A stretch of DNA of 64,000 bases, taken from contig NZ_JAQSLN010000003.1 of the NCBI RefSeq assembly GCF_028649655.1, forward strand, positions 1,178,001-1,242,000, in the 5' to 3' direction. This stretch comes from Halobacteriovorax sp. GB3. Lineage in GTDB: Bacteria; Bdellovibrionota; Bacteriovoracia; Bacteriovoracales; Bacteriovoracaceae. The notes under the pieces were generated by a model, which saw only the letters and a list, made by a program, of their open reading frames with translations, had not been told where the DNA came from and made no database searches. Below are positions 34,826 through 35,658 of this stretch, one piece after another; the stretch's first letter is position 1; each line of letters opens with the position of its first letter. The position numbers were made by a program, and so were the translations under genes.

Positions 34826-35449
34826 TTATTCAGAAAAAGTGCTTCTCATGTGAGAAACAACACCAATGTTACGTGCTCTCTTGATCGCAGCTTGAGCAAA
34901 TCTTTGGTGCTTTCTAGATACACCAGAAACTCTTGCTGGAGAGATTTTTCCAAATTCGTTGATTAGCCAGTTGAAAGTCTTTGGATCTTTCCAATCAGCC
35001 TTGATGCTCTTAGCTGTGAACCAACAGTTCTTTCTTCTTGCGAATTTCTTTCTGTCTTTTTCTGCATCTGAGTCTTGATCTAGATCGTCAAGAACTGAAC
35101 CATTGTGGTTCTTAGAGAATGGAGACTTGAATTTTTTTACAAGAGCTTCACCGTCTGCAGCTACGTCTGAAAGCTTAACGATCATTGTTTTAAGAATGTC
35201 TTCGTTAATTTTGAACTTTCTGTTTAGCTCAACGTTAGCTTCTGCATTACCTGTGTAGATGAAATAAAGGTAGTGACCTGTCTTTACACCTTTTGAAGTT
35301 GCTTGTGCGAAAGTTTTGTTTCCCCAGTCATCAGACAGAAGAACTTCACCGTCGAACGATTTTGCTACTTCTTCAACCATAGTTTGTAGAGCCTTGATTC
35401 CTTCTTCACCAAGGTTCGACTTAGCCACTAGGGCCAACTCATAAATCAT
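34826..35449 (-). CDS. Fused ribosomal proteins bS6 and bS18 in one polypeptide
   Basis: 207 residues in one uninterrupted frame. Residues 1-100 are S6 (MIYELALVAKS opening, GHYLYFIYTG strand, FKINEDILKTMIVKL ending). Residues about 134-203 are S18, with FARRKNCWFTAKSIKADWKD, GKISPARVSGVSRKHQRF and AAIKRARNIGVV, all expected S18 core segments. Between them is a 33-residue acidic/polar linker with no in-frame ATG, GTG or TTG, so S18 cannot be started separately. S6 and S18 normally bind each other on the 30S platform. The ssb/priB gene often found between rpsF and rpsR is missing. The AGGAGG ribosome-binding site follows a structured leader. Confidence 0.94.
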   Translation of the reverse strand: MIYELALVAKSNLGEEGIKALQTMVEEVAKSFDGEVLLSDDWGNKTFAQATSKGVKTGHYLYFIYTGNAEANVELNRKFKINEDILKTMIVKLSDVAADGEALVKKFKSPFSKNHNGSVLDDLDQDSDAEKDRKKFARRKNCWFTAKSIKADWKDPKTFNWLINEFGKISPARVSGVSRKHQRFAQAAIKRARNIGVVSHMRSTFSE

Positions 35450-35462
35450 ACTTTCCTCCTGG

Positions 35463-35496
35463 ACTTGCGGCTAACTTCCCTATGAAGCTAGCGAGT
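35463..35496 (-). promoter_or_regulatory. Candidate S6:S18 autoregulatory leader element
   Basis: In the leader of the S6-S18 gene the minus strand can fold as CUAGCUUC (35484-35491) with GAAGUUAG (35471-35478) around a five-base loop. An unpaired CCG (35468-35470) sits on the 3' side and a short outer stem pairs 35492-35496 with 35463-35467 (one mismatch). A stem with a 3' CCG bulge is the recognised shape of the S6:S18 mRNA binding site. The AGGAGG ribosome-binding site begins two bases further on. Confidence 0.65.
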
Positions 35497-35519
35497 ATTT
35501 CATTTATAAACGTCGCTCG

Positions 35520-35548
35520 AACATAGCAAAATTAAAGGGCTTCGTAAA
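35520..35548 (-). promoter_or_regulatory. Putative promoter of the S6-S18 gene
   Basis: Minus-strand TTTACG (-35) and TATGTT (-10) are 17 bases apart; a TG one base before the -10 makes it an extended -10 type. The predicted start would give a leader of about 64 bases that contains the CCG-bulge hairpin. Confidence 0.5.
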
Positions 35549-35635
35549 CAGGGCAGGCATTTTTTTAAGGGTCTACACACCTTTGGAACTAGTGTGTTTT
35601 CAGCATGTTAGAAAGGTTGTTTCACAAAAATGACA

Positions 35636-35658
35636 AAGGGCCCAAAAAAGGCCCTTCA
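35636..35658 (-). terminator. Terminator-like hairpin after the RNase G/E gene
   Basis: AAGGGCC / GGCCCTT 7-bp stem with a seven-base loop about 25 bases past the stop at 35682. On the minus strand it is followed by TGTCATTTTTG, a broken T-run. Confidence 0.6.

Follow-up and report, generated by a model that had tools for sequence, protein, structure and literature searches.

A remodelled S6:S18-type leader element that probably controls the S6–S18 fusion gene of Halobacteriovorax sp. GB3

The window analysed here is a stretch of 64,000 nucleotides from Halobacteriovorax sp. GB3 (assembly GCF_028649655.1, contig NZ_JAQSLN010000003.1, positions 1,178,001 to 1,242,000 of the forward strand), and its own numbering is used throughout. 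Its minus strand carries a gene in which the ribosomal proteins S6 and S18 are encoded as one chain of 207 aa, as the initial annotation of this DNA had proposed. Both Pfam domains were detected in the single chain, PF01250 (S6) at residues 3–92 (2.5e-18) and PF01084 (S18) at residues 149–196 (9.4e-15), and the protein scores above the NCBIfam cut-offs for both TIGR00166 and TIGR00165. A whole-genome search revealed no second S18 elsewhere in the 3.6-Mb genome; therefore, as the sole S18, the fused protein presumably works in the ribosome. No paper on an S6–S18 fusion was found in the open-access literature searched, although such a paper could still exist.

Genes for a DUF2232 protein, L9 and a DnaB-type helicase (the last assigned from sequence only) lie 3′ of the fusion gene, and its upstream neighbour is an RNase E/G gene. 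A terminator-like hairpin (35634–35658, minus strand) separates the latter from the fusion gene and would make the fusion transcript its own unit. The features of the leader and the probable promoter box are listed in Table 1. Of 113 family leaders, 100 have a box of the form TGnTAnnnT, most commonly at 31–42 nt 5′ of the leader hairpin, and the mRNA 5′ end of the window gene is predicted near 35513, about 64 nt upstream of the gene.

Table 1. Features of the S6–S18 fusion gene and its leader (window coordinates; H1, outer stem; H2, hairpin).
Feature	Coordinates	Strand	Basis or remark
S6–S18 fusion gene, 207 aa	34826..35449	−	S6 residues 3–92, linker ~93–134, S18 from ~135
Shine–Dalgarno AGGAGG	35455..35460	−	sequence
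H1 3′ strand GAG, part of the Shine–Dalgarno	35456..35458	−	pairing counts, covariation scan, model R3
CC, probable S18 contact	35461..35462	−	equivalent to 16S C719/C720 and to the CC of the E. coli rpsF leader
3′ bulge CGCAAGU	35463..35469	−	with 35470 holds the CCG (35468–35470) of the initial annotation, unconserved
H2 3′ arm GAAGUUAGC	35470..35478	−	covarying helix and fold
H2 loop AUAGG	35479..35483	−	fold; varies among relatives
H2 5′ arm GCUAGCUUC	35484..35492	−	covarying helix and fold
H1 5′ strand CUC, immediately 5′ of the hairpin	35493..35495	−	pairs with the Shine–Dalgarno GAG; aligned by model R2 to CCUU in relatives
Whole leader element	35455..35496	−	match to covariance model R3, E = 8.1e-5, 32.8 bits
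Extended −10 promoter box TGCTATGTT, probable	35520..35528	−	TGnTAnnnT in family leaders

The central part of the leader is a 9-bp hairpin at 35470–35492 of the minus strand. The 34-nt element that contains it folds at −12.1 kcal/mol (z −3.4), and none of 200 shuffles was as stable. That such a hairpin precedes the gene had been claimed from the sequence of the window, and it is borne out both by the fold and by its conservation across about 110 Bacteriovoracaceae leaders, in which it covaries strongly. When the CUC:GAG stem is added to the hairpin, the folding energy equals that of the hairpin alone, and the pairing of this stem in the free RNA is predicted at about 1%. The minimum-energy fold of the interval 35440–35508 (minus strand) joins AUACU to AGUAU across the start codon, an arrangement not shared by the family.

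When genomes were scanned with the single protein as query no match was obtained, whereas an alignment used as query recovered the relatives, named as Bacteriovorax, Halobacteriovorax and other Bacteriovoracaceae. An S6/S18 match was present in 119 of 129 Bacteriovoracaceae genomes, including all 73 of good quality, and almost every matching genome encodes one chain, two separate genes being found in five (G002, G019, G025, G028 and G103). In a tree of S6 plus S18 the fused forms make up a single clade (support 98/91), with the split forms branching at the base, adjoining outgroups in which all genes are split. Therefore, the fusion most likely arose once, inside the Bacteriovoracaceae. On the evidence of the tree and of the canonical elements in the outgroups, the leader element is older than the fusion. 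Among the basal split-gene members (L142–L146, from G028, G025, G103, G019 and G002, respectively), L142 keeps the layout of CC, two bases and Shine–Dalgarno; the other four leaders have no recognisable element, one of them, L146, being truncated at 37 nt.

To compare leaders, 116 loci were collected and anchored at the S6 start codon, most of the following counts being made over 110 leaders and some over 113. Almost all of them share one layout: CUC, a variable hairpin, a bulge, CC, two bases, the GAG or GGG of the Shine–Dalgarno and the start codon, with mostly 6–17 nt of bulge between hairpin and CC in the 110 family leaders. Compensatory changes were looked for in the leaders of relatives, and the hairpin passes, since all eight tested pairs change on both sides and 95.6% of the cells are paired. 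The covariation score of the hairpin together with the Shine–Dalgarno stem (H1) was 0.650, compared to 0.211 in shuffles and 0.18 at most when slid. H1 is complete as CUC:GAG in 100 of 110 leaders (22 at most for slid versions), and 319 of its 330 cells are paired, versus 156–234 when slid. The pair at its inner end is C-G in the family and U-A in leaders outside it, with U-G intermediates. Changes on both sides of H1 were seen only between the family and the outgroups and never within the family, in which either strand is nearly invariant; thus, its support there comes from conservation and from homology to CCUU:AAGG by models R2 and R3, and not from covariation.

The slot at 35461–35462 is occupied by CC in 105 of 110 family leaders and by UC in the other five, and this slot stands 12–15 nt 5′ of the start codon in 110 of 110. 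In 464 kb of the organism's own genome, CC was found at that slot in two of 116 genes with a strong Shine–Dalgarno, one of them the fusion gene. These are the two bases that the initial annotation had left out when it ended its element two bases before AGGAGG. In the window, as in 95 of 110 leaders, the next base is A, so that a CCG is absent from this slot. As CCA is also present in canonical leaders of other families, the G is not required across the phylum, and, because the third base is not G, the element is classed here as a homologous variant rather than a strict member of the CCG motif. Covariation of this third base between leader and 16S rRNA was not seen in the family, and the idea was dropped.

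A strict family descriptor (CUC/CUU, hairpin, CC-N-N-GRG) was satisfied by 94 of 113 leaders and, among 2260 dinucleotide shuffles, by one. If the shuffling was confined to the part upstream of the CC, with CC and Shine–Dalgarno retained, 296 of 2260 still satisfied it, and thus much of its specificity resides in the CC plus the Shine–Dalgarno. A loose hand-built descriptor was unspecific (34 matches in 464 kb; 18% of shuffles), and the conclusions are drawn from the strict forms and from covariance models.

Some leaders depart from the common layout. UC replaces CC in L037, L038, L040, L042 and L050 (GUUCAGGAGG), that is, in genus g12 plus L050; the 16S rRNAs of G109 and G139, from other genera than the UC leaders, have AUCAG at the S18 site and not ACCAG. 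All seven leaders of genus g60 (L066, L074, L080, L083, L084, L085 and L087) have CCCC 5′ of the hairpin and a CCC:GAG mismatch in the Shine–Dalgarno stem; these leaders offer another, longer outer stem, CUAGAC:GUUUAG, in which the changes are one-sided and consistent, and control may differ there. In L113 and L114 a bulge of 39 nt, with a second hairpin, lies between hairpin and CC (AUUCACCGUGUGGUGAAU). A class I fumarase-like gene, assigned by reading (L180:3700-4814, minus strand), whose product has a long N-terminal lysine–alanine repeat domain similar to histone H1, also has UCC before its Shine–Dalgarno (UCCAGGAGG). The split-gene, UC and g60 leaders are natural test cases for the element.

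The relationship with known leaders was followed with three covariance models, built from four leaders outside the family (R1), 17 leaders outside the family (R2) and seven fusion leaders, none of them from the genus of the window (R3); their E-values are rough, as the calibration was shortened. The window leader was unmatched by R1 and had no direct match with R2. R2 finds the E. coli rpsF leader, a member of Rfam family RF02893 (E 7.7e-4), and several fusion-gene leaders at the exact place (best E 9.4e-4); in the latter, CCUU is aligned with xCUC and CCGAAAGGA with CCAGGAGGA. With R3, the element at 35455–35496 was the only significant match in 464 kb (E 8.1e-5, against 1.6 for the second-best), and over 83 loci 59 matches were obtained at E up to 1, with most family leaders in place; in the reverse search, all seven matches outside the family were canonical leaders, all in place.

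The Rfam model RF02893 of the S6:S18 leader family (gathering score 37 bits), with which a search had been suggested at the outset, gave no match to the window leader at E up to 10, either in the leader region or in the whole genome, and no match above the cut-off among 144 genomes of the phylum. The E. coli leader, a member, scores 110 bits, and E. coli was the only one of 14 control genomes above the cut-off. As this model picks up hardly any leaders other than E. coli-like ones, its miss was not counted as evidence against the element. Since both R2 and RF02893 miss the window leader, its homology runs through other family members, and by this chain it is homologous to the rpsF leaders of the wider phylum and of E. 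coli.

The literature on S6:S18 leaders was taken from a review (PMC10931766) and a 2015 paper (PMC4647458). In E. coli, repression by S6:S18 through the CC of the rpsF leader has been shown, mutation of both conserved cytosines abolishes it, and these cytosines are touched by K60, R61 and R63 of S18 (PMC4647458). The effector was argued to be the S6:S18 complex, yet single mutations at the interface, whether in S6 or in S18, changed repression little or modestly (PMC4647458). An alignment by eye to E. coli S18 places K190, R191 and R193 of the fusion at those three residues. In the RF02893 alignment, CCUU abuts the 5′ side of the hairpin of the E. coli leader, and further on UGAAUAAUCCGU is followed by AAGGAGC, the Shine–Dalgarno strand of H1; two bases separate the recognised CC from this strand, and the CC thus falls in the slot that is 35461–35462 here.

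These data make it quite probable that the leader at 35455–35496 (minus strand) is a remodelled S6:S18-binding autorepression element controlling the covalent S6–S18 protein. The recognised cytosines are most likely those at 35461–35462, and the outer stem would most likely be CUC:GAG, which would occlude the Shine–Dalgarno itself. Thus, the proposal of an S6:S18-type leader before the fused gene is supported as to its kind, but its CCG and its outer stem had been misassigned. We infer that the fused protein binds the leader, that this closes H1 and represses the gene, and that genes downstream are affected. In the free mRNA H2 would be formed, with H1 energetically neutral and the Shine–Dalgarno largely open, so that the gene would be translated; as a 3-bp H1 is neutral alone, "on" is the expected state of the unbound leader. 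Once there is more fusion protein than free rRNA sites, its S18 part would grip the CC, as it does with C719/C720 of 16S rRNA, and the bound state would close H1, hide the GAG of the Shine–Dalgarno and stop initiation. Output of S6–S18 would then fall, along with that of DUF2232 and L9 through coupling or mRNA decay. Several points stand against this reading: H1 has only 3 bp, shows no two-sided change in the family, is predicted to be almost unpaired in the free RNA and is mismatched in g60; five leaders have UC; A mostly follows the CC; and neither R2 nor RF02893 matches the window leader directly.

The arrangement first proposed is unlikely. In it, the hairpin together with an ACUcG/CaAGU outer stem would display the CCG at 35468–35470 for reading by S18, and the element would not include the ribosome-binding site. 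A CCG does occur after the hairpin, but its first C is the closing base of the hairpin and, because of this, a fold with the CCG unpaired and that outer stem reaches only −7.5 kcal/mol and is 4.6 kcal/mol less stable than the bare hairpin. This CCG is present in both members of the genus and in 15 of 110 family leaders, where the trinucleotide after the hairpin is CUU in 35, CCA in 21, CCU in 19 and others in the rest; a complete ACU:AGU stem is seen in 22 of 110, all but one from the half of the family to which the window belongs (21 leaders), and the long outer stem of g60 could also be cited in its favour. However, most leaders lack both the CCG and the ACU:AGU stem and yet keep hairpin and gene, a loss of the CCG among relatives that the initial annotation had itself named as refuting its proposal, and the CC of E. 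coli corresponds to the other slot. An equally improbable explanation is that the hairpin is merely a spacer, a 5′ stabiliser or a translational enhancer, with no regulation by S6–S18. The weakness of H1, a Shine–Dalgarno core that is not predicted to be held and a hairpin whose sequence is free to vary would fit with this, but it leaves unexplained the fixed CC and CUC, the fixed spacing to the start codon and the homology to the element proven in E. coli.

Slightly less probable still is a relic, that is, an element from before the fusion that is kept by constraints on the Shine–Dalgarno and the promoter although the fused protein no longer represses. The element does predate the fusion, and the absence of a recognisable element from four of the five basal split-gene members indicates that loss is possible. 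Against this, the hairpin still covaries within the fusion clade and the CC is found in almost every leader at 41–65% protein identity; such covariation and retention over deep divergence point to continuing selection. On the best reading of the sequence comparisons, the leader derives from the S6:S18 element and would act in the same way, with a shorter outer stem, CCA for CCG and, above all, a one-chain regulator.

For work on Bacteriovoracaceae, a family of predatory-type bacteria whose leader would keep a slimmed-down form of the RNA structure of S6–S18 autocontrol, this reading corrects which cytosines should be mutated, namely 35461–35462 and not those of the CCG. It also makes visible how the outer stem of an operator changes from lineage to lineage. 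A one-chain S6–S18 with a conserved operator, together with split-gene relatives with or without one, allows a direct test of what assembly contributes to ribosomal-protein feedback. Tentatively, it may be that a heterodimer governing its mRNA became one covalent chain, so that assembly was not limiting and the lock of the operator could shrink to a Shine–Dalgarno stem of 3 bp, and that most basal split-gene lineages lost the element.

The closest known system is the S6:S18 motif or rpsF leader (Matelska 2013, Fu 2014, Babina 2015), which likewise precedes rpsF and ends its 3′ bulge in CC-N-N, the S18 contact residues being retained here; its hairpin stacks directly on an outer stem with the Shine–Dalgarno as 3′ strand, as would probably be the case in the window. 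The differences are in H1, which would be reduced to CUC:GAG here from CCUU:AAGG there, in the slot, which is CCA here and CCG in E. coli, and in the regulator, which is one fused chain here and a heterodimer there. Gene and topology are also shared with the Rfam family RF02893 (RpsF_leader), but the window leader is not matched by its model. Closer in lineage, the layout CCUU, hairpin, bulge, CC-N-N and AAGG is present in most rpsF leaders of the phylum, its strict form in 34 of 46 (E. coli included) versus 20 of 1840 shuffles. These canonical Bdellovibrionota leaders (L149–L219) have in common with the element a GCUC...GGGC hairpin, a bulge (e.g. UUUAA), CC-N-N and Shine–Dalgarno, and match it reciprocally in model searches, but their S6 and S18 genes are separate and their H1 is CCUU:AAGG. 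Finally, the CC is also shared with the S6:S18 platform site of 16S rRNA (C719/C720 beside helix 23a), which reads ACACCAGAGGCG in the organism's own 16S and AGUCCAGGAGG in the leader, the site being an rRNA junction in the former and a hairpin plus bulge in the latter.
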